DNA of 64,000 bases from Stenotrophomonas maltophilia (GTDB lineage Bacteria; Pseudomonadota; Gammaproteobacteria; Xanthomonadales; Xanthomonadaceae): assembly GCF_002138415.1 (NCBI RefSeq), contig NZ_CP015612.1, positions 1,032,001 through 1,096,000 of the forward strand. Reading direction: 5' to 3'. Position 1 is the stretch's first letter; each line of letters begins with the position of its first letter. This document shows, one piece after another, positions 13,820 through 32,948 of this stretch. The notes under the pieces are model-generated. The model saw nothing but the letters and a program-made list of their open reading frames with translations. It did no database searches and was not told the DNA's origin. Made by a program: the position numbers and the translations under genes.

Positions 13820-13866
13820 TACCGAGCCTGGGCGCATGGGCCCGTCAAGCCAGCAGGGAGTGTCAC

Positions 13867-14289
13867 ATGGGGAACAGGATCTTCCGGACGTTGGGCATTA
13901 CCTTGGCTCTGTGGGGCGTGCTGGCGCCCTGCAGAGGCTCGGCAGCCAACCCCATGCGAACTGCGCCGCCCATCGTGACGTTTCAGATGAAGGCAGAGCA
14001 GATGCTGGACAGCATTCACAGGATGCCGCCGCCGGAGGGTGCTCAGAAGCAGGACGTCAGTGGCTTTGTGAAACAGCAGCTGCCGCCCCGGATGGGCCTG
14101 TTGAACGTCAAGGCAGCCTTCGAAGATATTCCCACCGTGCGGATATCCCGACCGGCTGACGGTGTGCTGGTGGTGCGCGACGAAAGAAGACGCTGGCTGT
14201 GGTCCCGCACCAATGTCGTGGTGATGACCTATCGCTTCACCTACATGCCTGAGCAAGCCAAAGTGCACGCAGTGCGATACACGGAGTAG
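13867..14289 (+). CDS. Exported hypothetical protein
   Basis: This 140-aa protein has a probable signal peptide (GNRIFRTLGITLALWGVLA, cleavage near residue 27) and a small basic mature domain (VLVVRDERRRWLWSRTNVVVM). A GGGAGTGTCAC leader gives a ribosome-binding site. No family is recognised. It converges with the tailocin's last gene, 67 bp away. Confidence 0.6.
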   Translation: MGNRIFRTLGITLALWGVLAPCRGSAANPMRTAPPIVTFQMKAEQMLDSIHRMPPPEGAQKQDVSGFVKQQLPPRMGLLNVKAAFEDIPTVRISRPADGVLVVRDERRRWLWSRTNVVVMTYRFTYMPEQAKVHAVRYTE

Positions 14290-14356
14290 CGCCGGCAGGT
14301 CGTAGCAGTGTTGCAGCAACTGGATCGGGAGTACCGTATTCGCACCCCGCCTGGAT

Positions 14357-15430
14357 CTACACCTCGCTGCCAATCTGCTCGCCTTCGGTCGCTGGCGCGC
14401 TGCTGGCCGCCTTCACTGCATCGGCACTGTTGGGTTGTTCGCACTCGATGCTGGTCACGTAGCCGTCGTGGCTGATGTTGTGCTCGGCGCGCTTGACCAG
14501 CCACTGCCCATCCACGCCATCGCGGAAGCCCTGCATCACCACCGTTGCTTCGGCCATCAGCGTCTCGCGGCCGGGCAGGGTGTAGCTGAGCGTACGCGTC
14601 TGCCGGGCTTGTTCCTGATGCTTGGCGCGCGCTGCGGCTTCGGCGGCTTCGCGGTCGGCGTAGGCCATGCGCAGGCGCACGATCGGTTCACCGCTGCCCA
14701 ACTTCACCTCCTGGCGCGTGGCACCACGTACATCGCGGTAGTAGGCAATGGTGGTGCCGGTTTTCTCGCGTGAGACGATGCTCACTTTGTAGCTGCTGCC
14801 ATCGGCGGGGGTGAGGGTGACGTCGGGAATGCGCTCACCGCTGGCACTGGTGGAGTCGCCCCGTTTGACGAACATCAGGCGGCCGCCGCCCGGCTTGGCG
14901 ATGGCATCGTGCTGCTTGGCCATGCGCAGCAGCAGGTTCATGTCCGATTCCTGCGACTGCACCGTCAGCGGAAGCACGATGGACGCAAGCGATCCACTCA
15001 CGGCGGCGCTCAGTCCGTGCTCGGCGGCCATGCGCTGCACCATGCCACCGATCGTCGTGCCCTTCTTCCAGGTGCGCGTCTTCTGTGTCTGCAGCTCATT
15101 CTTGCCACCCTTGCTGGCCTCGAACGGCGCGGCGCGCGCGCGCAGGGTCATGCTGCCCGGGTAGCCGGAAATCTCCACCTCATCGCAGATGTACAGGCCC
15201 ATGCGCCGCACTTCGCCGTCATAGCCGATGAAGGCCTCCAGCTCCGCGCCTGCCGGCGGCAGCTGGATCGGATCGGATGGATCATGGTCGGCCAGCTGCA
15301 GCTCCAGCATGTCCGAGCTGTTGTCGGTCTCGTCGGTGATGCGCAGCGACTTGAAGCGGGACATGATCTTGTCGGTGATGTCCTGGCTGTTGGCCACCAC
15401 GCGGAAGGCCGGTGCGATGTTCAATCCCAC
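14357..15430 (-). CDS. Tail protein D (baseplate hub / late control D family)
   Basis: This 357-aa protein belongs to the P2 gpD / Mu gp44 family, forming the hub under the spike. Recognisable parts are a start MGLNIAPAFRVVANSQDIT, FKSLRITDETDNSSDMLELQ, and the family pattern EASKGGKNELQTQKTRTW. The start codon is GTG at 15430, overlapping the end of gene X by ten bases. It is the last gene of the tail operon. Confidence 0.9.
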   Translation of the reverse strand: MGLNIAPAFRVVANSQDITDKIMSRFKSLRITDETDNSSDMLELQLADHDPSDPIQLPPAGAELEAFIGYDGEVRRMGLYICDEVEISGYPGSMTLRARAAPFEASKGGKNELQTQKTRTWKKGTTIGGMVQRMAAEHGLSAAVSGSLASIVLPLTVQSQESDMNLLLRMAKQHDAIAKPGGGRLMFVKRGDSTSASGERIPDVTLTPADGSSYKVSIVSREKTGTTIAYYRDVRGATRQEVKLGSGEPIVRLRMAYADREAAEAAARAKHQEQARQTRTLSYTLPGRETLMAEATVVMQGFRDGVDGQWLVKRAEHNISHDGYVTSIECEQPNSADAVKAASSAPATEGEQIGSEV

Positions 15431-15636
15431 AGGGCCACTCCCTTGCGTTCGCCGGCGGGGCGCTGCACGTCCGGCAGGATGATCGCAATGCCCGCAGGCA
15501 GTACCGCGCCGCGCGCGGCCAGGGCCGGGTTGGCGTCGAATACCGCGCGCAGGATGGCCGGTGATTGTTCGCCATAGTGCGCATACGCGATGCGGTCAAC
15601 GACGTCGCCGTCGCGGGTGTTATACATTCGTGCCAT
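15421..15636 (-). CDS. Tail protein X
   Basis: The 71-aa protein MARMYNTRDGDVVDRIAYAH... matches the small gpX tail proteins of P2-like phages, which have a LysM-like fold (RDGD.VDRIAYAHYG, AILPxGxxIxLPD pattern) and join tube to baseplate hub. ATG 15636 is preferred because it yields the family's usual length. It overlaps the end of gene U by 17 bases. Confidence 0.88.
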   Translation of the reverse strand: MARMYNTRDGDVVDRIAYAHYGEQSPAILRAVFDANPALAARGAVLPAGIAIILPDVQRPAGERKGVALWD

Positions 15637-16087
15637 CGCTGTACTTCCGCAGGGAGAGGGTGAATTCTTGCCGCTGGATTCCCGCATCGACGGTGAATCC
15701 GGAGGCGGTGGCATCGATCTTGTCGATGACCCACAGGCCCAGGTTTCCGCCCTTGCCGGTCAGCAGCCGCTGGGGCTTGCCCTGTGCCGCCAGCTTGCGC
15801 AGCTGCGAGAGCTCATTGCCGGCACCCCGGAACTGATAGTGGATGATGCCGGGCAGCGTCATGCTGGCCTTGCCAGGGCCGGTGTACTGCAGGGCGGCCA
15901 TCTGCCCGATGCGCTCCTGGGCTGCCCAGCCATATTCGTTGCTCTGCTGGATCTCCTGGAACACGGCGGTGTTGAGGCTGAACTTGAAGCCGCCCAGCAT
16001 CAGCAGCACCGGGGCGTTGCCGGAGTCGTTGCTCTGGAAACTGGACAACAGCTTGTCGATGGATGCGGTTACGAACTCGCGCTTCAT
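15620..16087 (-). CDS. Tail protein U
   Basis: A 155-aa P2 gpU-family protein with VLLMLGGFKFSLNTAVFQEI, RIGQMAALQYTGPGKASMTLPG and IHYQFRGAGNELSQLRKLA. It works in tail terminus/baseplate assembly. It is separated by two bases from the tape-measure gene and overlaps gene X. Confidence 0.9.
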   Translation of the reverse strand: MKREFVTASIDKLLSSFQSNDSGNAPVLLMLGGFKFSLNTAVFQEIQQSNEYGWAAQERIGQMAALQYTGPGKASMTLPGIIHYQFRGAGNELSQLRKLAAQGKPQRLLTGKGGNLGLWVIDKIDATASGFTVDAGIQRQEFTLSLRKYSDGTNV

Positions 16088-16089
16088 GC

Positions 16090-18561
16090 TTAGTTCCTGT
16101 CTGCCAGGCCACCACGGGCAGCAACCGCGTTGCGGCGCTGCAGTTCGTCGGCCGTGCGACGTGCCACCGATTCGCTGGATTCACCGGGTTGCTGGTGGAT
16201 GGTGATGTTGTTGGTCTGTTGCTGCTGCACGGTGGTGACACCGCGCGGGGAGGGCGATGGCATGTCGGGTGCGGTACGACCCCGAGCGGCCTCGCTGATG
16301 CCTCCCCATCGCTTGCGCACCCCCGGCCCGTCCAGCGTGGCGACGTTGCCGACCAGGCCCACGGCGTCATCCAGGCCACCTCGGCCGCCGGCCCGCATGT
16401 TGGTGTACCCCACCATGCCGTTGCCGATCGCTTCTGCACCACCGGCAAGCATCTCCTTCCCGAAGTCCAGGCCCTTGCCGACCAGCGCACTGACCTTGCC
16501 GATGCCTCCTTCGACGAACCCCATCAGCTTCTCGACGTAGGGCATGAGGAAATCCAGCTTCGGAACGAGCCAGTTGAACAGGGATTCGGCACCGGACTTG
16601 ATCGCGGTCCACATCATGCTCATTACGCTGCCGATCCCGCTCGCGACGGTCGTGTACACGTTGCCCATCCAGACGACGTACTGCACCAAGCCGCTGATGA
16701 GCTGGATGTTCATTCTCAGGCCTTCCATCAGAACGGTACCGAGGAAGCTGCCGATCTGGGCAACGCGTGACAGTTCGTTGCCGGTGTACTGTGCAGGTGC
16801 AAGCATCTTCGACAGCCAGTCCCACGCCTGGCCGATCAGCCCGCTCATGACTTCCCAGGCGGGGCGCAGTGGTTCAACCGCGCGCATCAGTTCACCCATC
16901 GCCGCGGTGCCTGCACCGCTCAGGCCGTCCCAGACGCCGCCCAGGAATGCCTTGATCGGTTCCCAGTACTTGCGCACCAGGATGGCGCCTGCGGTGATCG
17001 CTGCGATGGCGATCGTGATCGGCCCGCCACCGATGGCCGCCACCGCAGTGGCAACCACACGGAAGCCCGACGCCAGGCGCATGGCCATCGGCCCGAAGCG
17101 CCCCATCTGTGCCAGCAGGCTGCCACCCCGGAACAGCTGGAAGGCCTTCTGCACGCCCAGGATCGGGCCCTGCAGGAAGGTCCAGGCATAGCGTGCGCCG
17201 AGCACCGCCGTGCGCATGCCCAGCATGCCGACCACGATCTGCGTGGTGTTGGCGATCAGCTTCGGGTTTTCCTGCACGAACGAGGTGACCCCGTTCAACA
17301 GCTCGGTCAGCTTGACCGCGGCCTCGCCAACTGCAGGCAGCAGGGCCGCACCGAAGGCCTTGGACAGGTTGTCCACGGCGATCTTGGCGCCTTCGATTTT
17401 CTGCGGATCGGTCTGCATCGCATCGGCATACGCCGCATCGGTGGTACCCGCCGATCCATTCAAGGCCTTGTCGCGGACGCGGATGTAGGTATCCCAGTTC
17501 TCGATCATCGGCTGGACGAAGTTCTTCGCCTGTGCATCGCTGAACAGGGCGCCGATCTTCTTCTGGTCGCCCGCGGTCGCCTGGATGATCCCCTGCATCG
17601 CGGCATCGAAGGGATTGCCGCCGCTGGTCTGTGCATCGCCGATGATCTTGCGCAGATCCAGGTTCAGGCTCTTCTTGGCTTTCTCCTGAATGTCCGGCGA
17701 GAGCACCTCGGACATGAAGCTCTTCATGTTGCTGGCGGCCTTGTCGGCGCCACCAGCCGAGTCCAGCGTGGCCTCCAGTGCCGCACCCAGTGTTGCCGCG
17801 GCCGACGTGCCCTGCAGCTTCATTGCCTCGAACGACGAGCCGAGTGTGGGCAGCACCTCGGCCATGTCCTTCAGGCCCAGGCTGCCCTGCTGGCTGTTCA
17901 CCACCAGCACGTCCAGTGCGTTCTGCATGCGTGCAGGATCGATGTCGAACGAGCGCTGCAGGCTTGCGGCCGCCTTGGCAACGTCGTCGATGCTGGCACC
18001 AGTGACAGTGGTCGTGCGCCCGACAGCACCCAGACTGGCCTGCGCGGACTGCGCATCCATGCCGGCAGCGACCATCAGCTTGATCGAGCGCTGCAGATCA
18101 TCGGCCCCCTGATTGGTCGCGCGCGATTGTTCCAGGATCGCCTGGCCAAGTGCGCTGACCTGGGCGCGGCTGAGGTTGGCCGCTACGCCGATCTGCTGGT
18201 TCTGACGGGCGAAGCCGGAGGCGTTCTCGACCGGCTTGGCCAGTGCGGTGACGGCGGTGCCGAGTGTGCCGCGTGCTGCCTTGAACGAGGCGCCGAGCTT
18301 CTCGCGTTTCTCCAGGTTGGCGGTGCGCTTGGCTTCAACACGCTCCAGCGCTTCCTGTGAGGCGCGCAGCGCATCGGCCTGCGCGCGCATGCGGGTGTAG
18401 GCGGTGCCTGACTTCTGCATCGCGGCGAGCTTGAGCTCCAGCTTGCCGGCTTCATCGCCGAGGCGCTTCACGCCATCGTTGGCGAAGGACAATGCGTCCT
18501 TCAGCGACTTGGATACCGAGCCGCCGATCGTGATCGTTGTCGTTTGAACGTTATTGGCCAT
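16090..18561 (-). CDS. Tail tape-measure protein T
   Basis: At 823 aa this is the largest tail gene, and its length sets tail length. The N-terminal about 130 residues are strongly coiled-coil (DEAGKLELKLAAMQKSGTAY, ALERVEAKRTANLEKREKLG), followed by the TP901/P2-type tape-measure core (GVAANLSRAQVSALGQAILE). A hydrophobic stretch lies in the second half (GGGPITIAIAAITAGAILV). The start overlaps the end of the E' frame by 11 bases, so translation is probably coupled to frameshifting upstream. Confidence 0.93.
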   Translation of the reverse strand: MANNVQTTTITIGGSVSKSLKDALSFANDGVKRLGDEAGKLELKLAAMQKSGTAYTRMRAQADALRASQEALERVEAKRTANLEKREKLGASFKAARGTLGTAVTALAKPVENASGFARQNQQIGVAANLSRAQVSALGQAILEQSRATNQGADDLQRSIKLMVAAGMDAQSAQASLGAVGRTTTVTGASIDDVAKAAASLQRSFDIDPARMQNALDVLVVNSQQGSLGLKDMAEVLPTLGSSFEAMKLQGTSAAATLGAALEATLDSAGGADKAASNMKSFMSEVLSPDIQEKAKKSLNLDLRKIIGDAQTSGGNPFDAAMQGIIQATAGDQKKIGALFSDAQAKNFVQPMIENWDTYIRVRDKALNGSAGTTDAAYADAMQTDPQKIEGAKIAVDNLSKAFGAALLPAVGEAAVKLTELLNGVTSFVQENPKLIANTTQIVVGMLGMRTAVLGARYAWTFLQGPILGVQKAFQLFRGGSLLAQMGRFGPMAMRLASGFRVVATAVAAIGGGPITIAIAAITAGAILVRKYWEPIKAFLGGVWDGLSGAGTAAMGELMRAVEPLRPAWEVMSGLIGQAWDWLSKMLAPAQYTGNELSRVAQIGSFLGTVLMEGLRMNIQLISGLVQYVVWMGNVYTTVASGIGSVMSMMWTAIKSGAESLFNWLVPKLDFLMPYVEKLMGFVEGGIGKVSALVGKGLDFGKEMLAGGAEAIGNGMVGYTNMRAGGRGGLDDAVGLVGNVATLDGPGVRKRWGGISEAARGRTAPDMPSPSPRGVTTVQQQQTNNITIHQQPGESSESVARRTADELQRRNAVAARGGLADRN

Positions 18562-18972
18562 GTACCGGCAATCCTTGAATCCACCAGATGAACTTCGACA
18601 CCCGCAGTGTCATGATCTCGCGCAGGCCCCAGCCGGTATGACCGGCCAGGGCGAGCACTCCCTGCCTGATCTGTGGCAGGGTCAGGTGGTAAAAAGCGCG
18701 ACGCCTGCCTGCAGTCGGGCATAGTCGCGCAACGGCATCTTGCGCACGTCATCCGGCGAGATCTCGCACAGGTTGGCGATCATCCGTACCTCGCGCTGTG
18801 CGTCACTGCCCTTGTCGTCCTGGTAGCGCTCCATGTCTTCCACGGTCGGTTCGCGCATGCGCAGCACGGCGGTCTCCATGCCGTTGACCTGGCGTGGGCG
18901 GGTGAGGGTAACCTCGGCAAAGCCATCGCGCTCGATGACGGTGTCGGTGGGGGTCTTGGTCTTGCTGGACAT
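18551..18972 (-). CDS. E+E' fusion made by -1 ribosomal frameshift
   Basis: A -1 frame opens at the end of gene E and runs to a TAA at 18551-18553 with no start codon of its own. After a slip on the five-T run (minus strand CGCTTTTTACC; A's at 18691-18695), translation would continue YHLTLPQIRQGVLALAGHTG, then WGLREIMTLRV and end GLPVHGQ. This adds about 46 residues like P2 gpE'. The arrangement is conserved in P2-like tails, where a T-rich slippery site is used. The exact slip codon is inferred. Confidence 0.8.
18682..18972 (-). CDS. Tail assembly chaperone E (zero-frame product)
   Basis: The 96-aa gpE-family protein has PRQVNGMETAVLRMREPTVE and NLCEISPDDVRKMPLRDYAR, and ends GVALFTT before a TGA at 18682-18684. 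In P2 this protein and its frameshifted longer form are chaperones for the tape measure. The gene sits between the tube gene FII and the tape-measure gene, its fixed position in this tail family. Confidence 0.9.
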   Translation of the reverse strand: MSSKTKTPTDTVIERDGFAEVTLTRPRQVNGMETAVLRMREPTVEDMERYQDDKGSDAQREVRMIANLCEISPDDVRKMPLRDYARLQAGVALFTT

Positions 18973-19052
18973 GGATGCGTTCCTGGAATTCGATGCAGTG
19001 CGATGGATGCGGGGGCGCGAGGCGCCCCCGGGTTTCTCGTTGTGGTGCGGGC

Positions 19053-19556
19053 TCAGATGCCCAGCGCGCCGCGGATGCCGGCCAGCACGTCCACGCCACC
19101 CTGGCGGGCGATCATGTTGACCACGTCGATCTCCTGCACGACCTGGGCGCCATGGGTCAGCTTGTAGTAGCTCAACGCCAGGTTGACCTTGATCGTGCCC
19201 TTCTCGCCAACCTTGGTTTCGCCGCGGTCCAGCAGCTTCACCTTGCCGCGCATGTTGTGCACGACCTGGGTCACTTCGCCGTCATCGCCTTCCAGCGCCT
19301 CGCGGGCGGTGAAGCCGTATTCCTTGCTTTCAACGACGTGGAACTTGCTCATGATTTCCGCGTCGTCGGAGGCAAACTCCACATCGGCGGTCAGCTTTTC
19401 ATGGCCGAGCACGATCTCGGTCGGGGCGAGCATGCCGCCGGCCTGGAAGTCCTCGGTCTTCAGCGACAGCTTCGGTGCGGTGAAGGACATCACGCTGCCG
19501 GCATAGCCCTTGCCGTCGACGTAGAAGTTGAAGTTTTTGCGGATCTTGCGCGCCAT
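19053..19556 (-). CDS. Tail tube protein FII
   Basis: This 167-aa protein of the P2 gpFII family forms the inner tube through which the particle depolarises its target. Typical segments are RKIRKNFNFYVDGKGYAG, KLSLKTEDFQAGGM, VELGHEKL-like VLGHEKLTADVEFAS and KVNLALSYYKLTHG. It lies two bases downstream of the sheath gene. Confidence 0.92.
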   Translation of the reverse strand: MARKIRKNFNFYVDGKGYAGSVMSFTAPKLSLKTEDFQAGGMLAPTEIVLGHEKLTADVEFASDDAEIMSKFHVVESKEYGFTAREALEGDDGEVTQVVHNMRGKVKLLDRGETKVGEKGTIKVNLALSYYKLTHGAQVVQEIDVVNMIARQGGVDVLAGIRGALGI

Positions 19557-19558
19557 GC

Positions 19559-20758
19559 TTAGAAGATCTCCGAGACGTAGTTGTTGTTCATGTGCATGCG
19601 GAAGGTTAGCTGCTCACCCGGGTAGGTTGGGGTGAAGTCGAAGTCCCAGAAGAAGCGGCCCTGCGCCACGCTGTCCGCTGCGTTCAGTTCCGGGTCGATC
19701 CAGCAGTTGCCGCCGAGGATCGCGCCCTGGGTCTTCAGGCCGCGCAGGAAGGCGTTGACGCCCTCGCGCACGTCATCGACGTAGGTCTTGCTGATGCCGC
19801 GGTCGACGGCCCACAGATGGGCAGCCTCGAGGCTGTCAGCAATGATGTCGGCCGTGCGCACCACGCACAGGAACTGCCACTTCTGGTCGCTGCTGGCGGT
19901 ACGGTTGCCCCACAGGCGGAAGCCACCTTCGCGGATGATGGTCGCCACGTTCGACTGGTTCAGCAGGTTGGCGCGGCTGGTCGCGTCGGACAGGCCGAAG
20001 TCGATCGCACGCGCGGTACCGACCACGCCGTTGAGCTCCAGGTTCGACGGCGATGCCCACCAGCCGCGTTCGTTGTCACTGCGGGCGATGGCGCCGGCCA
20101 CCGCACCGGAGGCGTAGCGGGTGACGATGGCATCACCGGACTGCACCAGCAGCGCCGGGTCGACCACGTAGACGCGCTTGGAACCGGTCAGGGCGGTGGT
20201 GCTCTTGGCAGCGTCGTCGGTGCTGTTCGGACCATCCTTGATGATCACCGCACGCAGCTTGTCGGCGATGCCGAGCAGTTCGGCCACGACCGGGTTGGCC
20301 AGCAGTTCGGTGTCGCGCTTTTCGTGGGTGTGGGTGAAGCCCGGCACCGCCAGGATGCGTGGCTTGATGCCCACTACCGACTTTGCCGCCAGCAGTGCAT
20401 GCACGCCGGTGTAGGCACCGGTCTGCGCGTTCACGCCGCCCAGCACGTTGGCCAGGGTGTCGTTCTCGGTGGCGCCCTTCTCGACGCGGATGACGACGAC
20501 GACCGCGTTGGACTGATCGAAGATGGCGTCGAGCTGGCCCGGGAGGGTGCCCTCATCGACTTCGGTTGCGGCGTTGGCGAGCAGCTTGGCTGCCTGCGAA
20601 CGCGAGGTCACCAGGACCGGAGTGTTGTACGGGAAGGCGATCTTGTCGGCGCGGGGCGCGGTGCCCACAATGCCGATGACGCTGGTCGAGGCAACAGCGA
20701 TCGAGCGGGAACCACCATCGATGTTGACGACCTGCACGCCATGCAGAAATTCGGCCAT
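19559..20758 (-). CDS. Contractile tail sheath protein FI
   Basis: A 399-aa sheath protein; contraction drives the tube through the outer membrane of the target cell. The start MAEFLHGVQVVNIDGGSRSI, the SVIGIVGTAP motif and the C-terminal GGNCWIDPELNAADSVAQGR and FDFTPTYPGEQLTFRM are characteristic of P2 gpFI. Presence of sheath plus tube shows an R-type (contractile) particle rather than an F-type flexible tail. Confidence 0.94.
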   Translation of the reverse strand: MAEFLHGVQVVNIDGGSRSIAVASTSVIGIVGTAPRADKIAFPYNTPVLVTSRSQAAKLLANAATEVDEGTLPGQLDAIFDQSNAVVVVIRVEKGATENDTLANVLGGVNAQTGAYTGVHALLAAKSVVGIKPRILAVPGFTHTHEKRDTELLANPVVAELLGIADKLRAVIIKDGPNSTDDAAKSTTALTGSKRVYVVDPALLVQSGDAIVTRYASGAVAGAIARSDNERGWWASPSNLELNGVVGTARAIDFGLSDATSRANLLNQSNVATIIREGGFRLWGNRTASSDQKWQFLCVVRTADIIADSLEAAHLWAVDRGISKTYVDDVREGVNAFLRGLKTQGAILGGNCWIDPELNAADSVAQGRFFWDFDFTPTYPGEQLTFRMHMNNNYVSEIF

Positions 20759-20865
20759 GCGTTGTTTTTTCCTTGGTTGGGTGGGTGCTGCGGTCGCGAT
20801 CTGCGCCGCATGGGTACATGTTCGTATCTGGCCGCGGCTGGATTAATTGCAGCCGTGGCCCGACC

Positions 20866-21450
20866 TCAGGGTTGCGGCTGCGCGGCCGGGTCGGGTTCGG
20901 GTGCAGTGACCATCACCCAGGCGGCACGGGTTTCATCGAAGGTGACCGGGTAGCTGCGATCCGCAGGCGGTGCCAGGTCGGTGACCGATGACGGCAGCGC
21001 GACCCCACGGGAAACGGGAGTAGCGAAGCTGGCATCGTGCTTGTTCCACAGCGGTCGCGTGCTGTAGTCCGGCAGCAATGTCCATTCGCGGCGGCTGGCA
21101 TTCCACGCGTTGTATTGCGCGGTGGTGCCATCCAGCTTGAATGGCTCGGACAGGGTTACGTCCTTGGGCAACGGCTCGCCCAGCGCAAGGCGATTGGGTA
21201 TCGCCATCGCGGTGCGTGTGTCCCACAGCATGTGGTTACGGAAATCGGCCACCGTTTCCCAGCGTGAGCCGTCATCGGCCAGGCGCAGTGCCTGGTATTC
21301 GCCAGCAGTTTGGCGAGGCGTGACGTCCACGGTGAAGTCGGGCAGGTTCCAGGTACCGTCCGGGGAAGGCTGCAGGCGGACCTTGCCCATGTAGGCGCGG
21401 GTATCGGGATCGTAGGAGTGCGCGAAGCGCGGTTCAGTAGGCAAGCTCAT
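20866..21450 (-). CDS. Probable tail-fibre assembly protein
   Basis: The 194-aa product lies directly after the fibre gene, where P2 has the fibre chaperone gpG. It has Tyr/Trp-rich blocks (PRFAHSYDPDTRAYMGKVRL, DGSRWETVADFRNHMLW) and a C-terminal PPADRSYPVTFDETRAAWV, features of fibre-assembly or fibre-tip proteins. The call rests mainly on position. Such genes usually vary with the matching fibre. Confidence 0.6.
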   Translation of the reverse strand: MSLPTEPRFAHSYDPDTRAYMGKVRLQPSPDGTWNLPDFTVDVTPRQTAGEYQALRLADDGSRWETVADFRNHMLWDTRTAMAIPNRLALGEPLPKDVTLSEPFKLDGTTAQYNAWNASRREWTLLPDYSTRPLWNKHDASFATPVSRGVALPSSVTDLAPPADRSYPVTFDETRAAWVMVTAPEPDPAAQPQP

Positions 21451-21454
21451 GTCC

Positions 21455-22954
21455 TCAGTACGCGATGCAATAGATCATCCGCAGGCCGGCAGGCAGGTTG
21501 CGGTCGCCACCGGTGTTCTCCACCACGATGGTGTGGGTGTGTGCACCGGCATCGGCGGCCGAGGCGGCATGGCCGTGGTCACCGACCTGGGCGATGGAAA
21601 TGGTGTGCGAGTGGCCGCCGGCGCCGTTCATGCCGATGTTGTGGCCATGTGCGCCTGCGCCGTCGGTGCTGAAGCTATGGGCGTGACCGCCGGCGGGTGC
21701 TGTGGCGCCGTCCGGATACAGCGCATCGTTGTCGCGTTCGCGATAGACGCCGTAGCCGTTGAGGGCAGGATTGGAGGGAACAACGCCTCCATGTTGGTGG
21801 TCGCCGGCCCACGAGGTGCCACCGGTATGCGCATGGTGGCCCTGCGAGTCGGTCCATGCACCGTGCGCGTGGTCACCGACGGCACTGGCGCTGGCACCGT
21901 GGGAGTGCGCGCCGCCTGCGCCCACGGAAATGGCGTGGCTGTGGTTGCCTGCCGTTGCCGCGCTTGCACCGTGGGCATGGCGGATCACTTCACCCTGGGT
22001 GAAGCTGCCGACCGCTTCCGGGTTCAGCGTGTGCGTGACCACCGTGCCTTCCTGCATTGCCGGGAGGTTGAAGGTGGTCGCGCCATCACCGGCGCCGTAG
22101 CGGGTACCGATGGCGGCGAACAGCGCCGGATAGCTGGCACGCGGAACAGCGGCGCCATTGCACAGCAGCATGCCGTTGGGCGCAGTGGCACCGGCGAACA
22201 GAATCACCTGTCCGGGCACGTGCACGCTGGATGGCACGCCGGTCATGTTGTGCCAGTCCAGGTAATGGTTGCCGTGCCTGCCATCGAGCAGATCGGCATC
22301 CAGGCCCTTGTCGGCGCCCTCGTCCTTCAACGCTGCCGATTTCAGCCCCAGGGCGGAACGGAACGCGGCATCGGTTGCGATCGACAGCAGCGTGCGCACG
22401 AACTGGGTGGGGGCGCTGGCACCAAAGCGCTTGTCGATGAAGGCACGCAGCCCGCGCGGTGTCACCGCACGCTGGGTGTCTGCACCATCTTCGGTCTCGG
22501 TCGTAGTGGCCAACTCGACCACGCCCTGCACTTCGGTGGTGGAAGGGGGATAGATGAATTCGGCATTGCCGAATTCGATCAGCGCGGTATCGACTTCACT
22601 GAAGCGGGTATCGGTGGAGAGCAGCAGCATCGAGGCTGCGGTCTTCTCCATGATGGGATCGGTCTGGCCGAAGGTTGCAAACAACGTGCCGTCGCCCAGG
22701 TACAGGCCGAAGCCGCGCAGGCTGTAGGCGGTAGCGCTGTCGTCGCGGATCGTGACGTGCAGCGTGTCATCTCCCACGGCCTTGCCGCCGAAAGTGGTGA
22801 CCCGCTTGATCTCGCCGGGCAGGGCGGTCAGCCCCGCCGTCGGCGTGAATGCCGTGGACGTCAGGCCGATCTCGGTGATCAGCACGGCATTGGTGCCGGT
22901 GTTGGGTGGATTGACCAGCTTGGCAAAGCCGGCGTCGGTGATTTTCAAGCGCAT
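21455..22954 (-). CDS. Tail fibre with collar domain and His-x-His array
   Basis: The 499-aa protein starts with the P2 gpH N-terminal baseplate-attachment domain (MRLKITDAGFAKLVNPPN, ALIEFGNAEFIYPPSTTEVQ). A phage tail-collar domain follows (GATAPNGMLLCNGAAVPRAS, YGAGDGATTFNLP). The last about 170 residues carry eleven HxH motifs spaced roughly 10-20 residues apart (for example HAHG, HSHA, HTHT) and end GDRNLPAGLRMIYCIAY. HxH motifs in T4-type fibres coordinate iron inside a trimeric needle, so this tip is probably a metal-stabilised trimer. It should determine the killing spectrum. Confidence 0.9.
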   Translation of the reverse strand: MRLKITDAGFAKLVNPPNTGTNAVLITEIGLTSTAFTPTAGLTALPGEIKRVTTFGGKAVGDDTLHVTIRDDSATAYSLRGFGLYLGDGTLFATFGQTDPIMEKTAASMLLLSTDTRFSEVDTALIEFGNAEFIYPPSTTEVQGVVELATTTETEDGADTQRAVTPRGLRAFIDKRFGASAPTQFVRTLLSIATDAAFRSALGLKSAALKDEGADKGLDADLLDGRHGNHYLDWHNMTGVPSSVHVPGQVILFAGATAPNGMLLCNGAAVPRASYPALFAAIGTRYGAGDGATTFNLPAMQEGTVVTHTLNPEAVGSFTQGEVIRHAHGASAATAGNHSHAISVGAGGAHSHGASASAVGDHAHGAWTDSQGHHAHTGGTSWAGDHQHGGVVPSNPALNGYGVYRERDNDALYPDGATAPAGGHAHSFSTDGAGAHGHNIGMNGAGGHSHTISIAQVGDHGHAASAADAGAHTHTIVVENTGGDRNLPAGLRMIYCIAY

Positions 22955-22961
22955 GCGGGGT

Positions 22962-23753
22962 TTACTCTCCGATCAGTTGGATGCGGCGGAAGGTGGTGCC
23001 CTGGGCACCGACAAGTGCACCGATACCGGCGCTGGCCTGCATGCCCTGGGTGAAGGTGAAGTGCGATCGCACCGGCTTGGTCCGGCTGATCTCGCCGATC
23101 ACGTCGTCGACGAACTTGGCGGTGGCGGTCTCGCCGCCCTGGTTGGCGATGGTCATCACCGCTTCGAAGGTGTGCGGTGCACCCTGCGGCTGCATCTCCC
23201 ACCATTCGCGGATCAGGATCGAGCCACCAAAAGCGGCGACCACGTCGCGCACGCTGCCCCAGGTGCCCTTGCGGCGCTGGATGGCGATCGCGGCGCGTAC
23301 GCGTGCACGCTTCACCGTCTCCGGCCAATACGCTTTCCATTCGTCAACGGACAAGGCCCAGGCCAGCCAGGGCAGCAATGCGGTAGGACAGCGGTCGGCG
23401 TCCCACAGTGCGGTGATGTCTACCGGCAGCGGGCGGGCGACGATGGCCCGCGCCAGTCCACGTTCGGCATGCGTGGCATTGGGAGGCAGCAGGTTGGGAG
23501 CACGCGGAACCGCGATCTGCGCATCGCCTTCGATCAGCGTGCCGGGTGCCGGGGCGACCGACAGGATGACCGTGGCGCCGCTGATGGCAACATCGCGCAA
23601 CCGCTGCCGTCCTTGCTGGTCGGTGTGGTACACCGCCTGCAGGGTTGCCAGTGCACCACCGGGGTGACGGAAGGTACGGTTCTGTCCATCGATGGCACCG
23701 CGGAGGCGCGCGCCGATCAGGCGCGTGGTGTCGTCATTCATCATTGCCGCCAT
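22962..23753 (-). CDS. Baseplate protein I with an unusual N-terminal extension
   Basis: The C-terminal about 180 residues match P2 gpI (LLPPNATHAERGLARAIVAR, ALLPWLAWALSVDEWKAYWP, GSVRDVVAAFGGSILIREWW). About 80 extra residues precede this domain (LRGAIDGQNRTFRHPGGALA, AVYHTDQQGRQRLRDVAISG), making the protein 263 aa rather than the usual near 180. The frame is continuous, so this is a fused domain rather than a second gene. It overlaps gene J by 20 bases. Confidence 0.85.
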   Translation of the reverse strand: MAAMMNDDTTRLIGARLRGAIDGQNRTFRHPGGALATLQAVYHTDQQGRQRLRDVAISGATVILSVAPAPGTLIEGDAQIAVPRAPNLLPPNATHAERGLARAIVARPLPVDITALWDADRCPTALLPWLAWALSVDEWKAYWPETVKRARVRAAIAIQRRKGTWGSVRDVVAAFGGSILIREWWEMQPQGAPHTFEAVMTIANQGGETATAKFVDDVIGEISRTKPVRSHFTFTQGMQASAGIGALVGAQGTTFRRIQLIGE

Positions 23754-24630
23754 GGCTCAGCGTGATGCTGGTGCAGTGCGTGGCCTGGGTACGATCAACC
23801 ACGATGTCTTTGGCCGGGTTGGTGATCTCCACGCGCTGCACGCCCTCGGCATGCAGTGCGGCGAACAATCCCGAACGGGTGACGTCGCGGCCGAGCCGGT
23901 GCGATTCGCTGATGTAGCGGTCAAGGCGGGTGCGCGCTTCGGCCAGCACCACCTGCGAATCCGGGCCGGCAAAAGTGAAAAGTGCGGCGTCGACCGTGTA
24001 GTTGATGATGGCAGCGGGTTTAACCACTACGTGATCGGTCAGTGGTCGCACGTCATCCGCACTCAGCTTTGCGTCGACGATATCGAGCAGACCCTGGGAA
24101 GCGGTGCCGTCGCCTTCGCGTGAGAGCACAGAAACCACTACCTCGCCAGGGGAGGGACTGGTTGCGCTGGCGTCCAGCACACGGGCGTCGGCGCTCAGCG
24201 CGTGGAAGATGTAGGCACCCTCCGGCCCAGCCACACTGAAGCCTTCCGGCCCCAGCTGGATGCGGCGTCGGAAATCCTCGTCACTTTCGTAACGCGGTGC
24301 GATGCCTTGCTGCGGCTTGCCGGGGTCCAGCACCTGGCGGGCGATGCCGAAGATCGCAGCCAGATGGTCCAGATCGTTGCCGACGGCATAGGCCAGCATC
24401 ACGCCACGCGCGGCATCGTTGACCCGCTGGCGATCGAGCAGGCGCAGGTAGGTGCAGACCTCCAGGATCTTGAAGGCCGGGTCCGACGGCAACAGCGCGT
24501 CGAAGGTGGGATCCAGGGCCTGCAGCGCGGTCAGCGATTCATCGAACATGGCTTCGAAATCGAGCACTTCGATGACCGCCGGGGCAGGCAGCTGGGACAG
24601 ATTGACACTGGTGAACGAGCCGGATGCCAC
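23734..24630 (-). CDS. Baseplate wedge protein J
   Basis: This 298-aa protein is the P2 gpJ homologue (usual length near 300), with ALDPTFDALLPSDPAFKILE, RVNDAARGVMLAYAVGNDLD, HLAAIFGIARQVLDP and AGPEGAYIFHALSADARVLD. The start is taken as GTG at 24630, two bases after the stop of gene W; upstream reading in the same frame is Arg/Pro-rich shadow. Confidence 0.92.
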   Translation of the reverse strand: MASGSFTSVNLSQLPAPAVIEVLDFEAMFDESLTALQALDPTFDALLPSDPAFKILEVCTYLRLLDRQRVNDAARGVMLAYAVGNDLDHLAAIFGIARQVLDPGKPQQGIAPRYESDEDFRRRIQLGPEGFSVAGPEGAYIFHALSADARVLDASATSPSPGEVVVSVLSREGDGTASQGLLDIVDAKLSADDVRPLTDHVVVKPAAIINYTVDAALFTFAGPDSQVVLAEARTRLDRYISESHRLGRDVTRSGLFAALHAEGVQRVEITNPAKDIVVDRTQATHCTSITLSHGGNDE

Positions 24631-24632
24631 GG

Positions 24633-24971
24633 TTAGCGAACCTCGATTCCTTCGATGGTGATGGCCTCGCCGTCGGGCAGGTGGATTCCGGTCACTGCCA
24701 GGATCATCACGCCGGGGGCGGGGAGGGAGACGTCGATGTTCTCGACGTGGAGACGCGGTTCCCATCGCGCGAGCGCGTCGACGGTGGCCGCGATCAGGTC
24801 CATGCGCAGCGAGCGGTTGGTCGGCGCATCGATCAGTTCGAACACGCGCGAGCCGTATTCGCGGCGCAGTACGCGGGAGCCAAGGGGCGTGGTGAGAATG
24901 TCACGCACGGACTGGTGCAGATGGGCGAGCCCATCCAGTGATTTGCCGGTGTTGGCGTCGATTCCTCGCAT
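24633..24971 (-). CDS. Baseplate protein W (gp25-like)
   Basis: A 112-aa gpW / T4 gp25-family protein. It has the signature TPLGSRVLRREYGSRVFELI with the conserved EYG segment and ends EAITIEGIEVR. The family joins sheath to baseplate and starts contraction. Confidence 0.92.
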   Translation of the reverse strand: MRGIDANTGKSLDGLAHLHQSVRDILTTPLGSRVLRREYGSRVFELIDAPTNRSLRMDLIAATVDALARWEPRLHVENIDVSLPAPGVMILAVTGIHLPDGEAITIEGIEVR

Positions 24972-25023
24972 GGCCTCTATCGTCGTGGAGTGCGGGTATT
25001 CAGGGCATTGCAGGCGTGGCCGA

Positions 25024-25614
25024 TCAGGCCTGCGCCGGCGTGGTGGGAGCGGTCGGCCCCTGCGCGGTGTGCGTGTGTGCCTTCAGCCCGATGGCACCTG
25101 CCTTGATCTCGGCGGGTGTGCTGATGTCCTTGCCCGCACTGATCGTGCCGGTGACGTCCAGGTTGCCAGTCGCCTTGATCGACGGCGTATCGAGCACGAT
25201 CGATTCGCTGGCGATCACCTGCGCACTTGCACAGGTGACAGTGACCTTGCCGCTGCCAACATGGACGTTGAGCGTGCCGGTTCCCTGGTCGTACTCGACG
25301 ATGCTGCCGTCGGCGTACTCGGTGCGCTGCCGCAGTCGCGAGTCGGCGGGCGCCGGGAACCGGTCCTGGTACAGGCTGCCGAGCACGAGTGCCTGGCCGG
25401 GGTCGCCATAGGGACAGGCGAGTACCACCTGCTCGCCGGGTTCGGGGGCACACCAGCTGCGCACGCCGGGTCCGGCCCGGCGTTCCAGCCAGGGAATCCA
25501 GTCGGTCAGCATGCCGTCGGCATCGACGCGAACACGCCCATTCGCCTCGTCCAGCTCGCGTACCACACCGATCAACAGCAGGTTGCCGATCAAACGTGCG
25601 TGTTCGGCGCTCAT
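25024..25614 (-). CDS. Baseplate spike protein V
   Basis: The 196-aa gpV-family spike has an N-terminal OB-fold (GVVRELDEANGRVRVDADGM, CAPEPGEQVVLACPYGDPGQ), a beta-helical middle (VHVGSGKVTVTCASAQVIAS) and a tip sequence GLKAHTHTAQGPT whose HxH motif would bind the apical metal ion seen in P2-type spikes. It punctures the outer membrane of the target. Confidence 0.93.
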   Translation of the reverse strand: MSAEHARLIGNLLLIGVVRELDEANGRVRVDADGMLTDWIPWLERRAGPGVRSWCAPEPGEQVVLACPYGDPGQALVLGSLYQDRFPAPADSRLRQRTEYADGSIVEYDQGTGTLNVHVGSGKVTVTCASAQVIASESIVLDTPSIKATGNLDVTGTISAGKDISTPAEIKAGAIGLKAHTHTAQGPTAPTTPAQA

Positions 25615-26165
25615 GGTGCGCGTTCCGGCAGGGGCTGGTAGCGCGCCACATGGGCACGGCCGATCTCTGGCGCGAAGCTGTAGGACGCCTGTGGCACTAC
25701 GCCTCCTTCATCGTCCCAGGCGTTGTCGCCCAGCGCGACCGGCAGTGACCATTCGACGACCCAGCTGCGCAGGCCGGCCTGTGCGGTTGCGGCGTCTTCG
25801 GGCAGAGCCGCGATTACGTCGATCGCACCGCTGGAGGCACCGTGGAAGCGGCCGAGCTGGTGCAGCCAGGTGGCCAATGCAATCGCGGCATTGCGCAGTT
25901 GCAGCGCGCCGGCGGTGCTACCGGCCGACACGACGATGCGTGCCTCGAAGCGCAGCACCGCCTGCAGCAGTCCGCTGCCGTCATTGCCTTCCCGGCTGCG
26001 GTCACAGCGGGTCAGTGCCAGCAGGCAGGCCGGTGTGGGCATGCCTTCGCTGCTGGCCTCGCGATAGAACTCGACGGTTGCGAAGTCCGGAAAGCGTGTG
26101 CGGATGGCGGCTTCGATGGCGCCGTGCAGTGTGTCGAGCGTCGGAGAGGGGGAGTCAGTCGCCAT
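25611..26165 (-). CDS. Probable tail completion/terminator protein
   Basis: This 184-aa protein overlaps the spike gene start by four bases. It shows TLDTLHGAIEAAIRTRFPDF, VLRFEARIVVSAGSTAGALQ and RSWVVEWSLPVALGD, resembling Mu gp37-like or P2 tail-completion proteins in length and pattern. It lies where P2 has R and S. A headless tail still needs a terminator at its top end, and this is the best candidate. The family assignment is uncertain. Confidence 0.6.
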   Translation of the reverse strand: MATDSPSPTLDTLHGAIEAAIRTRFPDFATVEFYREASSEGMPTPACLLALTRCDRSREGNDGSGLLQAVLRFEARIVVSAGSTAGALQLRNAAIALATWLHQLGRFHGASSGAIDVIAALPEDAATAQAGLRSWVVEWSLPVALGDNAWDDEGGVVPQASYSFAPEIGRAHVARYQPLPERAP

Positions 26166-26281
26166 ATCAGCTCATGTAGTGAATGGTGGAAGGGCGTGGC
26201 CGCGTGGCACGCGCGGTCTGCAGCCAGTGTTGCCATCACCGGATGGGCACGGCATTGCAGGCGTGGCCGCCCGCGGCGGGG

Positions 26282-26629
26282 TCAGAAGGCCGGCGCGGCG
26301 CCGTGGTTGTTGCCGGCGGCGACGCCGCAGCCTGGAGGCGCTACCGGTGCCGAGCCGTTGAGGGTGATGCCGCGCTGACTGCCGAGGCTGCACAGCAGCG
26401 CTCGCAGTTGATCGGCCAGCGCGTGGTACTGCCGCGCGACCGCAACGTGATTGCGCAGCAGTGCATCATCAGTAGCTGCCTGCAGGTCTGGCAGCTCGTC
26501 CGGCGCACGCAACTGCGCCGGTGCGATGCTGAGATCAACGAGGCAGGGCGCGGCCGGCGTTGGCTTCGCGCCAGATGCGCACGAACTCAGCATCAGCGTC
26601 GCCGCGATCACGGCCAGGCGTCTTGGCAT
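26282..26629 (-). CDS. Rz1-like outer-membrane spanin lipoprotein
   Basis: The 115-aa product starts MPRRLAVIAATLMLSSCASG with a lipobox (LSSC) and a Pro-containing mature N-terminus (KPTPAAP). Its start lies inside the Rz gene in another frame, the classic Rz/Rz1 overlap. It pairs with Rz to fuse inner and outer membranes in the last lysis step. Its C-terminal part is longer than in most Rz1 proteins. Confidence 0.8.
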   Translation of the reverse strand: MPRRLAVIAATLMLSSCASGAKPTPAAPCLVDLSIAPAQLRAPDELPDLQAATDDALLRNHVAVARQYHALADQLRALLCSLGSQRGITLNGSAPVAPPGCGVAAGNNHGAAPAF

Positions 26630-26912
26630 GGGTCTCGATGTCCTGTTGCAGGGTATTGAACTGCCGGGTGCGCTGGGCCTGCGTGGCCAAGCGCTGCGAT
26701 TCGGCCCGGGCACCGGCGCGGGCGTTGGCGAGGTCCCGCTGATGGGCGGCCTGCGCCGTATCAGCGCGCGATGCCTGCTGTGCGGCCTGGGCGCTGGTAA
26801 CGGCAAGGTCTGCGCTGCGGTCCCGTAGCGTCCACCCCAGCCAGGCGCAGCCTGCGTGGCTTCCGGCCAGGACCAGCAGGCCGATTCGGAACCGCAGGGC
26901 GAGGGGCGTCAT
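26535..26912 (-). CDS. Rz-like inner-membrane spanin
   Basis: A 125-aa protein with one N-terminal membrane anchor (RFRIGLLVLAGSHAGCAWLG), then a long Ala/Gln/Arg coiled-coil (AQAAQQASRADTAQAAHQRD, RLATQAQRTRQFNTLQQDIE). It overlaps the endolysin gene by four bases, and the Rz1 gene begins inside it. Confidence 0.82.
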   Translation of the reverse strand: MTPLALRFRIGLLVLAGSHAGCAWLGWTLRDRSADLAVTSAQAAQQASRADTAQAAHQRDLANARAGARAESQRLATQAQRTRQFNTLQQDIETHAKTPGRDRGDADAEFVRIWREANAGRALPR

Positions 26913-27394
26913 TGCAGGGCTCCGCCGGCGGCGCGGTAGGCCACGCGCAGTGTTTCCAGCGCATGTTCCTTCTGCCCATAGCCGGCACCGGGCAGCGACG
27001 CCCAGATCCGCCGTGCCGCGCTGACGGCGGCATCGAAACGTCCCAGCCGGATCAGCTCGTAGGCCCCGCACTGCCTAAGCAGGGCGACCGCCGCGCGATC
27101 CTGCGAGACCGGGCCGAAATCGGGCAGGCCGAGGCGCGCGCGCAGGTCGTCCCAGGTGCTGCGAAGAAACTGGTAGCGGCCGGCGGCGCTGGATTTGATG
27201 CCATAGCGTGGCAGCGACACCAGCACGCGGGGATGGTCGTGGTAGTCGTTGAACAGTTGGCCTCCGACGATCACGTCGTAGCCACGGTCACGCGAGCGCT
27301 GGCTGGGGATGTCGGTGCCTTCGGACACGGCCAGCATGTCCAGGAATGCGACCACATTGGCGCCGCCGAGGGCGCTGGCTGCGGCGGCCGTCAT
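26909..27394 (-). CDS. Endolysin, lambda R-type lytic transglycosylase
   Basis: The 161-aa enzyme closely follows phage lambda R (GH104): FLDMLAVSEGTDIPSQ with catalytic-type Glu25, GYDVIVGGQLFNDYHDHPR, AAGRYQFLRSTWDDL and IWASLPGAGYGQ. It cleaves peptidoglycan glycan strands to release particles. No signal peptide is seen, so export depends on a holin, for which the overlapping upstream gene is the candidate. Confidence 0.92.
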   Translation of the reverse strand: MTAAAASALGGANVVAFLDMLAVSEGTDIPSQRSRDRGYDVIVGGQLFNDYHDHPRVLVSLPRYGIKSSAAGRYQFLRSTWDDLRARLGLPDFGPVSQDRAAVALLRQCGAYELIRLGRFDAAVSAARRIWASLPGAGYGQKEHALETLRVAYRAAGGALQ

Positions 27395-27741
27395 GCGGCG
27401 GCTCCCGGCTGCTTGCGCACCAGCGCGAGCAGCGCATCTATCTGCACGCTCTGCTGGACGATCTGTGCGCGCAGGGCGCTGACCTCGCCGCGCAGCTGGC
27501 CGATCTCCTGTGCCATTGCCTCGCGTTCGTGCATCAGGCCGTCGGCGCGGGTGCGTTCGGCGGCAAGCTGCTCCTGCAGGGTGCGCAGCGTGTTGCTGGT
27601 GGCTTCGTCGGCGGTACGGTCGACCTTGGCCGACGACAACCATTGGCGCAGCCACAGCGATACCGCGATCAGCACGCCCGAGGTTCCCCCCAGGTACTTG
27701 GCCCAGTCCGGTACACCGGCCAACAGGTCACTTTCGTTCAT
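27391..27741 (-). CDS. Membrane protein with coiled coil, putative holin
   Basis: This 116-aa protein has one hydrophobic segment (YLGGTSGVLIAVSLWL) followed by a long charged coiled coil (TLRTLQEQLAAERTRADGLM, EIGQLRGEVSALRAQIVQQS). It overlaps the endolysin gene by four bases and is the only membrane protein before it, hence the holin call. The single segment and coiled coil are unusual for a holin. Confidence 0.5.
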   Translation of the reverse strand: MNESDLLAGVPDWAKYLGGTSGVLIAVSLWLRQWLSSAKVDRTADEATSNTLRTLQEQLAAERTRADGLMHEREAMAQEIGQLRGEVSALRAQIVQQSVQIDALLALVRKQPGAAA

Positions 27742-28187
27742 GCGCGTGCGTATCCCTTGAGCAGGGCCGGGTGGACGGCCGGTGGCGGCGCGGAACGCGC
27801 GCCGCGCAGGGCACGCTTGATGGTGGTCTGCGAGACACCGAACTCACGTGCAACATGTTCGCGCGGCATGCCGCTGGCCACGGCACGCGCGATCTGATCG
27901 CGGCGTTCGTGCGCGCCGGCGGCAAAGCAGGAGGCCAGGAACAGCAGCTCGCCACCGAAATGCGCGACCAGCCGCTGGGCGACGTCGTGGCCGAGGATGT
28001 CGATCAGGCGATGCTGATCAGGCAGGGTGGATGGAACGTAGACGATGACGCGGTGGCGGCCGGTGGTGCTGGAGGTGGTCGGCGGCCATGCACGCACCAG
28101 CGTGAGGGCTGCGGATTCGCCGATGACCTCGGCCAGGGTCTGGATGCTGTCGGGCAGGGCGTTCATGAAGGATGTCGTCAGTGGCAT
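27738..28187 (-). CDS. Mor/C-family transcription activator of the tailocin
   Basis: The 149-aa protein has a C-terminal helix-turn-helix (IARAVASGMPREHVAREFGV, SQTTIKRALRG) and a central GELLFLASCFAAGAHERRDQ, the pattern of phage Mu Mor/C activators. In Mu such proteins switch on middle/late operons. Being first gene of the lysis-tail operon, it probably activates or sustains tail expression, the role PrtN has for R-pyocins. ATG 28187 follows GTGGAGATCA. A 21-bp motif at 28218 lies 30 bp upstream. Confidence 0.78.
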   Translation of the reverse strand: MPLTTSFMNALPDSIQTLAEVIGESAALTLVRAWPPTTSSTTGRHRVIVYVPSTLPDQHRLIDILGHDVAQRLVAHFGGELLFLASCFAAGAHERRDQIARAVASGMPREHVAREFGVSQTTIKRALRGARSAPPPAVHPALLKGYARA

Positions 28188-28217
28188 TGATCTCCACTGT
28201 TGCCATCCCGCCCCTTC

Positions 28218-28238
28218 AGTCAACACCTTTCATCTACT
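28218..28238 (-). promoter_or_regulatory. 21-bp repeated motif upstream of the Mor-like gene
   Basis: AGTAGATGAAAGGTGTTGACT (minus strand) is identical to the sequence at 30032-30052. No good -10 box stands 16-18 bp downstream here, so it may be an activator or repressor site rather than a plain -35. The rest of 28188-28476 holds no gene that I can support. Confidence 0.6.
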
Positions 28239-28471
28239 TTCGGTTGTGTGTGCTGAAGACATTCATCGGCGCCGCGAGGACGGGTGAGGAGTGCTGCAGG
28301 GCGCGGTGTGATGCCTTGCAGCCGCTGGCTGTTGCCACCGATGTTTTCCCCTCCTTTCGTACTCGTGGTCCTCACAAGGCGGAAGGAAGAGCAGATCAAG
28401 GAGATGCGGCAGGTACAGGGTGAGGACGACGCCCCGTGGGCCGTCCTCATGCAGGCGAGCGGGCCCTGAAA

Positions 28472-28500
28472 CGAAAAAGCCCCGGACGATGCCGGGGCTT
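28472..28500 (-). terminator. Rho-independent terminator of the early module
   Basis: Read on the minus strand, AAGCCCCGG and CCGGGGCTT (28492-28500 and 28477-28485) form a 9-bp stem with a 6-base loop, followed by a T run (28474-28478). It lies 22 bp past the stop of the 127-aa gene and separates the early module from the Mor-tail operon. Confidence 0.88.
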
Positions 28501-28522
28501 CAGGACTGCAGGTGGAGCTGGA

Positions 28523-28906: not shown

Positions 28907-29060
28907 GGCATTTCCTCTTTGCGAACGGGGTTGGGGATGCAGGGTGACGACAGGTGTCGTCGGTGATGGGGGACGACCTTACATCATTTTCGCCGACGAT
29001 GGGTCGGAACCTGCGGGCGGGACAGGGTACGCGGCAGGGCAACGCGGCCTTGCTCCAGGC

Positions 29061-32936: not shown

Positions 32937-32948
32937 AATACAGCTGGC

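Follow-up and report, generated by a model that had tools for sequence, protein, structure and literature searches.

The stretch of DNA analysed here (the window) comprises the 64,000 nucleotides at positions 1,032,001-1,096,000 of a complete 4.67-Mb Stenotrophomonas genome, and positions below are counted from its first nucleotide. It carries an inserted element of ~19.7 kb (19,729 bp) that encodes a maltocin, a Stenotrophomonas R-type tailocin already in print (Table 1). The first-pass annotation placed the cluster at 14357..28187. These limits proved too narrow, as the element spans about 13821-33549 and includes replication and other early genes that had been overlooked.

The borders were defined by comparison with loci that lack the tailocin. 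The receptor gene of the right flank was searched for in 91 genomes of the genus, which yielded 30 loci, 17 of them from tailocin-less genomes. All 17 were examined over ~5.1 kb each, and matches shorter than 80 bp were dropped. Homology to the window restarts at position 33550 in every one of them, and the segment 14290-33549 has no match within the compared DNA of any. The end of the tautomerase gene (13809-13820) sits 39-115 bp from the 33550 flank in 10 of the 17, which, together with the restart of homology, places the insertion at about 13821-33549. The remaining seven yielded no tautomerase match within the ~0.9 kb compared upstream, so different DNA occupies that place there. The tautomerase and receptor genes also flank the element in 11 other tailocin loci compared at the nucleotide level (only BLAST matches above 150 bp counted); in one of these, G060, the DNA beyond the left flank is unlike that of the window. 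Both flanking genes were found in all 15 tailocin loci of the genus. As the first-pass annotation had it, Pfam detected no integrase in those element proteins that were scanned. The maltocin element is an insertion at one fixed chromosomal site and is non-mobile.

Table 1 Features of the maltocin element, in window coordinates.
Feature	Positions	Strand	Basis
Whole inserted maltocin element	13821..33549	none	empty-site comparison; conserved flanks
gpD baseplate hub	14357..15430	-	PF05954; 53% to Murka
gpX	15421..15714	-	PF05489
gpU	15620..16087	-	PF06995
Tape measure T, 823 aa	16090..18561	-	PF10145; 40% to Murka across 679 aa
Tail assembly chaperone E	18682..18972	-	PF10109; -1 frame extends as E'
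Tail tube FII	19053..19556	-	PF04985
Sheath FI	19559..20758	-	PF17482, PF04984
Tail fibre assembly-like protein	20866..21450	-	phrog_105, phrog_15280
Tail fibre with collar domain	21455..22954	-	PF07484
gpI	22962..23753	-	PF09684
gpJ (start approximate)	23734..24636	-	PF04865
gpW	24633..24971	-	PF04965
gpV spike	25024..25614	-	PF04717, PF18715
Tail terminator	25611..26165	-	phrog_1072; 43% to Murka tail terminator
Junction lacking the head module, 116 bp	26166..26281	-	between Rz1 and terminator; compare G054
o-Spanin, Rz1-like	26282..26626	-	37% to Murka
i-Spanin, Rz-like	26535..26909	-	24% to Murka
Endolysin	26909..27394	-	phrog_90; 54% to P2 K
Holin candidate	27391..27741	-	phrog_2658, hol-like
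Mor-type late activator	27738..28226 (alternative start 28166)	-	phrog_836, E 9.7e-29; PF08765
Upstream box copy 1 (before Mor)	28218..28241	-	genome search; alignment of 15 loci
127-aa protein	28523..28906	-	phrog_23491; C-terminal 60 aa 42% to Murka 40689-40862
Deoxynucleoside monophosphate (dNMP) kinase	29061..29699	-	PF21448; phrog_139
75-aa putative helix-turn-helix (HTH) regulator	29740..29967	-	phrog_27354 (unknown function); HTH assigned by eye
Upstream box copy 2 (before HTH/kinase genes)	30032..30055	-	genome search; alignment of 15 loci
Toprim/VapE primase-helicase, 778 aa	30125..32461	-	PF05272, PF13362
Degenerate third box upstream of primase	32627..32650	-	67% to reference copy; alignment of 15 loci
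Palindrome, possible operator	32687..32710	none	between divergent gene sets
DksA-like zinc finger, 74 aa	32949..33173	+	phrog_54; 47% Murka, 46% Mano early-gene homologues
84-aa Acb2-like protein	33185..33439	+	profile match to Acb2 chains 8ixz, 8h2j

Pfam profiles identify D, X, U, the tape measure, E, FII, FI, the collar fibre, I, J, W and the V spike, all on the minus strand and above curated cut-offs, in the order that the first-pass annotation had given. Matches in PHROGs bear out the endolysin, the holin candidate and the Mor-type activator, Rz and Rz1 correspond to the spanin region of the Foxunavirus phage Murka, and translation of the -1 frame prolongs E as far as the start of the tape measure gene, consistent with the E/E' pair. 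That gene list therefore stands, except that it omitted the tail terminator. Residues 3-398 of the sheath match the R-pyocin sheath PA0622 with an E value of 2.8e-94. The C-terminus of the fibre and its assembly gene vary among loci: ~46% of the fibre aligns in 9 of the 15 while the others align along it, and of the other 14 loci five have the fibre-assembly-like gene, with identities of 63-100%. With a full contractile tail gene set and a lysis cassette, the element is an R-type tailocin. Gene X lies between U and D here as it does in pyocins; the order is nevertheless not pyocin-specific, because phages Mano, Murka and PPpW-3 share it. R-type pyocins are controlled by PrtN/PrtR. The proposal of a Mor-type activator rather than that pair agrees with the finding of Mor and with the lack of a PrtN/PrtR match among the Pfam-scanned proteins of the cluster, the rest of the genome not having been searched.

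The element is accounted for gene by gene with no head, portal or terminase gene, and its longest gene-free stretch by the listed coordinates is ~490 bp, which leaves no space for a portal or terminase. A Foxunavirus/Manovirus-type head module was not found in the element with Pfam, and neither a lambda-type portal nor a GpA terminase was found genome-wide, in searches that did not extend to P2-type or further families of portal and terminase; the absence of capsid, portal and terminase from the cluster is thereby upheld. A head-bearing counterpart occurs in G054, a Stenotrophomonas genome of 85% completeness that contains a prophage, or a remnant of one, of the same phage group (L084/L085). 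There, TerS, GpA, portal and capsid genes are placed between Rz1 and the tail terminator. In G054 the gene for the sheath is interrupted; next to Mor stands a dnaB gene that may be the host's own. By this layout the maltocin resembles a prophage of this kind from which two blocks are missing, that of the head genes and that running from integrase to early genes. Elsewhere in the window's genome, a single HK97-type capsid gene (L108, genome position 2856686) lies 1.8 Mb from the element and presumably belongs to another prophage.

The identification of the element as a headless R-type tailocin of the maltocin type, as first proposed, is supported by its gene set, by the genus and by agreement with maltocin P28 at the ends of the endolysin. 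Translated by hand, the published P28 endolysin primers (PMC4656821) agree with the endolysin over its N-terminal 7 and C-terminal 5 residues, the comparison being limited to these ends. A 2026 paper assigns the maltocin cluster to smlt1035-1065, with smlt1054 as the endolysin, and reports strong induction of maltocin proteins by ciprofloxacin in strain 44/98 (PMC13393414). The same paper describes the cluster as devoid of capsid and typical phage enzyme genes; the preceding sentence there gives terminase and integrase as examples, and perhaps only those are meant. A review lists P28 at 19,919 bp and S16 at 19,658 bp, with 23 open reading frames, in its table, and in the relevant passage describes both as headless killing particles with no genetic material (PMC8228603). 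Because the cluster sizes are similar, P28 and S16 likely contain primase-helicase and dNMP kinase genes too.

The origin of the tail module was examined with tblastn against four phages of our choosing, Mano, Murka, PPpW-3 and P2, the first three selected for their primase or annotation; of the pyocin proteins only the sheath (PA0622) was compared. Here, and in the gene-by-gene comparison of loci and the selection analysis, each gene was represented in each genome by its best segment alone. Matches were obtained for 13 of the 14 tail-module genes (terminator, V, W, J, I, fibre, FI, FII, E, T, U, X and D), and each of these 13 has its top score in the Foxunavirus/Manovirus group, the fibre weakly and in part. 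Judged by sequence, the tail module is thus nearest to Foxunavirus/Manovirus-type phages among the four compared. A P2 ancestry of the tail genes was considered and ruled out, all 13 matched genes being closer to the Foxunavirus/Manovirus group. A passage of the article on phage Murka infers a temperate predecessor for it and uses the major capsid and terminase genes to trace related prophages, with none in Xanthomonas and some in other bacteria (PMC10892653). A headless descendant would be invisible to a search that uses those genes.

Upstream of Mor, the minus strand encodes the 127-aa protein, the dNMP kinase, the putative HTH protein and the primase-helicase, divergent from the plus-strand zinc finger and 84-aa genes. 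The primase-helicase can be aligned nearly end to end with the Murka and Mano primases (53% identity to the former over 774 aa), and less fully at the N-terminus with that of PPpW-3. Glutamate, DxD-like, GKT and ELGE positions are kept in the alignment with the three phage primases; we take the first two to be Toprim motifs and the latter two helicase motifs. The closest primases among the named loci, both at 97%, come from S. maltophilia ATCC 700475 and an uncultured Stenotrophomonas metagenome-assembled genome. No early gene matched NCBIfam above curated cut-offs, the 75-aa putative HTH protein has no Pfam match, and PADLOC matched neither the primase nor the 84-aa protein.

The primase accompanies the tail genes throughout the genus. 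A sheath of at least 87% identity occurs in 15 of the 91 genomes, and a primase of at least 88% in the identical 15 (E up to 1e-150). The next-best sheaths show 62-64% identity in G054 and at most 41% at 8 further places, and genomes with such distant sheaths have no close primase, except for G005, in which the distant sheath is a second one. The primase is full length in all 15 loci, with no stops and no gap columns in 14 comparisons, and its ratio of nonsynonymous to synonymous substitution rates (dN/dS) has a median of 0.094 and a range of 0.085-0.150. These ratios were computed against the window gene in 14 related and hence non-independent comparisons, and Rz, Rz1, the fibre and the fibre-assembly gene were left out. 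Median values for the other early genes are 0.083 (HTH), 0.174 (kinase), 0.182 (127-aa protein) and 0.091 (84-aa protein), and the corresponding figures elsewhere are 0.057 (Mor), 0.035 (holin candidate), 0.067 (endolysin), 0.045-0.304 (12 tail genes) and, in two host genes, 0.078 and 0.088. All 19 element genes tested are stop-free in the 14 comparisons. The DksA-like zinc finger was found in all 15 loci, as was the 84-aa protein, at 94-100% identity. The dNMP kinase, 58-93% identical in the other 14 loci and with gaps, is the least tightly kept early gene. The primase-helicase is conserved under purifying selection, and the kinase less tightly so.

With up to 3 mismatches allowed, a 20-bp box, AGTAGATGAAAGGTGTTGAC, has exactly two copies genome-wide, while a reversed control has none. 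Both copies are retained with 0-2 mismatches over an 18-bp core in all 15 loci, where many flanking bases vary. The HTH/kinase genes and the Mor/lysis/tail genes have this upstream box in common, and we infer that the gene sets headed by it are operons. Mano, Murka, PPpW-3 and G054 contain nothing with fewer than 5 mismatches of 20. The palindrome GATCTGCG-N8-CGCAGATC has a single exact copy in the genome and one other place at 1 mismatch; ATCTGC in its left half is kept in all 15 loci and its right half is variable.

A profile of the 84-aa protein built from 11 sequences matches Acb2 chains 8ixz and 8h2j with an E value of 7e-07; all 10 homologues found were used in the alignment, some of them truncated or out of frame at the end. 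With an E value of 4e-13 the protein also matches the C-terminal end of phrog_717, a family of 289 aa with no assigned function, and its score against the Acb2 Pfam family falls under the gathering cut-off. The AlphaFold model has a mean predicted local distance difference test (pLDDT) score of 88.7 and opens with a long helix, residues 3-42. A Foldseek search with this model ranks Acb2 1-3 (E 0.02-0.04) and phage T4 Vs.4 4-5, the matches to these proteins spanning E 0.02-1.9 and query template modelling (TM) scores of 0.63-0.82. The arginine aligned to Acb2 R67, which we take to be a trinucleotide contact, is kept in all 15 loci. The N-terminal helix of the dinucleotide pocket is not present in the model; a passage of a review ties that Acb2 helix to dinucleotide binding and places the action of Acb2 during lysogenic induction (PMC12043709). 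The 84-aa protein resembles solved Acb2 in sequence and, as modelled, in fold.

Features of other kinds lie at or near the left border. A small DUF6393-like gene (13867-14289, plus strand) lies within the insertion border and occurs in 4 of the 15 tailocin loci. Outside the insertion is a C4 antisense RNA (12958-13059, minus strand; RF01695, 53.3 bits), which is present in 5 of 8 loci scanned (the window, G006, G060, G001 and G118, and not G040, G005 or G032); given this position and distribution it was ruled out as a part of the system. Just beyond tRNA-Val, at 9519-11990 on the plus strand, a SIR2-like and STAND NTPase defence gene has ThsA as its top PADLOC match, and no match longer than 150 bp was found for it in the 11 tailocin loci compared.

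The best overall explanation of the locus is a maltocin R-type tailocin that descended from a Foxunavirus/Manovirus-type prophage rendered headless and was fixed as a weapon, to which we assign a probability of about 85%. A temperate phage of that group would have lost the head-packaging block between the spanins and the tail terminator, as well as its integrase/recombination block, before fixation. DNA damage, as published for maltocins, would switch the locus on, Mor would drive the lysis and tail genes, and lysis would free headless tails whose fibre picks the victims. What the early genes contribute is a separate matter. The leading reading, unproven and itself less likely than not, is amplification of the locus by the primase-helicase upon induction, with nucleotides supplied by the kinase, which would raise gene dosage for the burst of tails. 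The Acb2-like protein might, with considerable doubt, be a cyclic-nucleotide sponge that guards production by soaking up the signal, so that host suicide immunity would not pre-empt it. Still more doubtful is the combination of the two, a self-amplifying and self-shielding maltocin whose locus might, after DNA damage, be replicated in place by the primase-helicase for a higher dosage of tail genes while its sponge, probably for cyclic trinucleotides, silences suicide immunity until lysis.

Several results count against parts of this picture. phrog_717 outscores Acb2 as a match to the 84-aa protein, for which Mano, Murka and PPpW-3 yielded nothing significant; a wider phage search returned 10 Pseudomonas and Klebsiella phage records, none of them Foxunavirus or Manovirus and 7 covering 45-55% of its length only. 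A SMODS CD-NTase is encoded in 3 of the 15 tailocin-bearing genomes versus 7 of the 76 others and was not found in the window's own genome, SMODS being one CD-NTase family only. Co-occurrence with the cyclic-oligonucleotide-based anti-phage signalling system (CBASS) thus fails as support for a sponge. No replication origin was identified. Identity of the dNMP kinase falls to 58-66% in three of the other 14 loci, and Mano, Murka and PPpW-3 contain no match to it at E values up to 1. The fibre-assembly protein, the holin candidate and the HTH protein are without a match in the four phages at 1e-3, and the endolysin matches only P2 K among them, so the element is a mosaic.

Two other accounts of the early genes were weighed. 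These genes might protect the host, the primase-helicase and the Acb2-like protein acting against incoming phages or adjusting host signalling, and be mere neighbours of the tailocin; purifying selection on each protein, the transcription of the zinc finger and Acb2-like genes away from the tail genes, and the nearby SIR2-STAND gene would all suit such a role. It is made unlikely by the occurrence of a close sheath and a close primase in the same 15 of 91 genomes, never one alone, and by the box that the HTH/kinase genes share with the Mor/tail genes. An account in which the early genes persist as functionless remnants of the ancestral prophage would agree with the presence of the primase, the zinc finger and Mor in related phages, and with the absence from the element of the single-stranded DNA-binding protein, exonuclease and helicase genes that neighbour them there. 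We regard it as improbable, as the primase has stayed free of stops and gaps at dN/dS of 0.085-0.150 and the 84-aa protein is almost invariant in all 15 loci.

Readings that dispute the nature of the element itself are much weaker. A replication protein next to headless tail genes, and one HK97-type capsid elsewhere in the genome, could suggest a phage satellite that encodes tails, replicates and takes its heads from a helper phage, the mirror image of capsid-forming satellites. The lack of an integrase among the scanned proteins, the identical flanking genes in the 11 loci compared and in all 15, the missing head-completion genes, and the account of maltocin particles as free of genetic material in the review passage (PMC8228603) leave it with very little probability. 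Least credible of all is a decaying prophage that no longer yields a product: the loss of head and integrase genes would fit, whereas the 19 stop-free genes and the strong ciprofloxacin induction reported in a passage on strain 44/98 (PMC13393414) speak against decay.

In literature searches, mostly of abstracts and with most subscription papers outside their scope, no tailocin with retained replication or sponge genes was reported. As far as searched, the element borders, the Foxunavirus/Manovirus-type tail relationship, the selected retention of the primase-helicase, the kinase genes sharing a box with the tail genes, and the Acb2-like passenger are new. Since tailocins are DNA-free, replication genes should be dispensable to them, and the conservation of the primase in this one suggests an unrecognized step in production. 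If a bacterial weapon retains a gene like that of an immunity sponge, the making of tailocins would be linked with cyclic-nucleotide immunity.

Among known systems, the element is closest to maltocins P28 and S16 and to the cluster of S. maltophilia 44/98 and K279a, with which it shares genus, R-type gene cluster and approximate size and, for P28, the endolysin ends. The 84-aa protein has profile and fold likeness to Acb2 (PDB 'p26' chains 8h2j and 8ixz; T4 Vs.4), compared with which it is shorter, lacks the N-terminal helix and shows about 28% identity. The R-type pyocins of P. aeruginosa are likewise headless contractile tails, with a matching sheath in PA0622; the maltocin differs in its Mor-type activator and in keeping a replication primase, a dNMP kinase and an Acb2-like gene, none of which pyocins are known to have. 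Phage P2 (Peduovirus) has the P2-type tail gene set in common with the maltocin, as well as an endolysin at 54% identity, but its X gene lies near the lysis genes, unlike that of the maltocin, and its scores are lower for all 13 matched tail genes. With Foxunavirus (Murka, FoX1), Manovirus (Mano) and Hiroshimavirus (PPpW-3) the maltocin shares the tail gene order, the terminator, the Mor-lysis cassette, the primase and the zinc finger, whereas the head block and the integrase/recombination/helicase block of these phages are both absent from it. This link offers the Foxunaviruses a relative in the form of a probable headless descendant.

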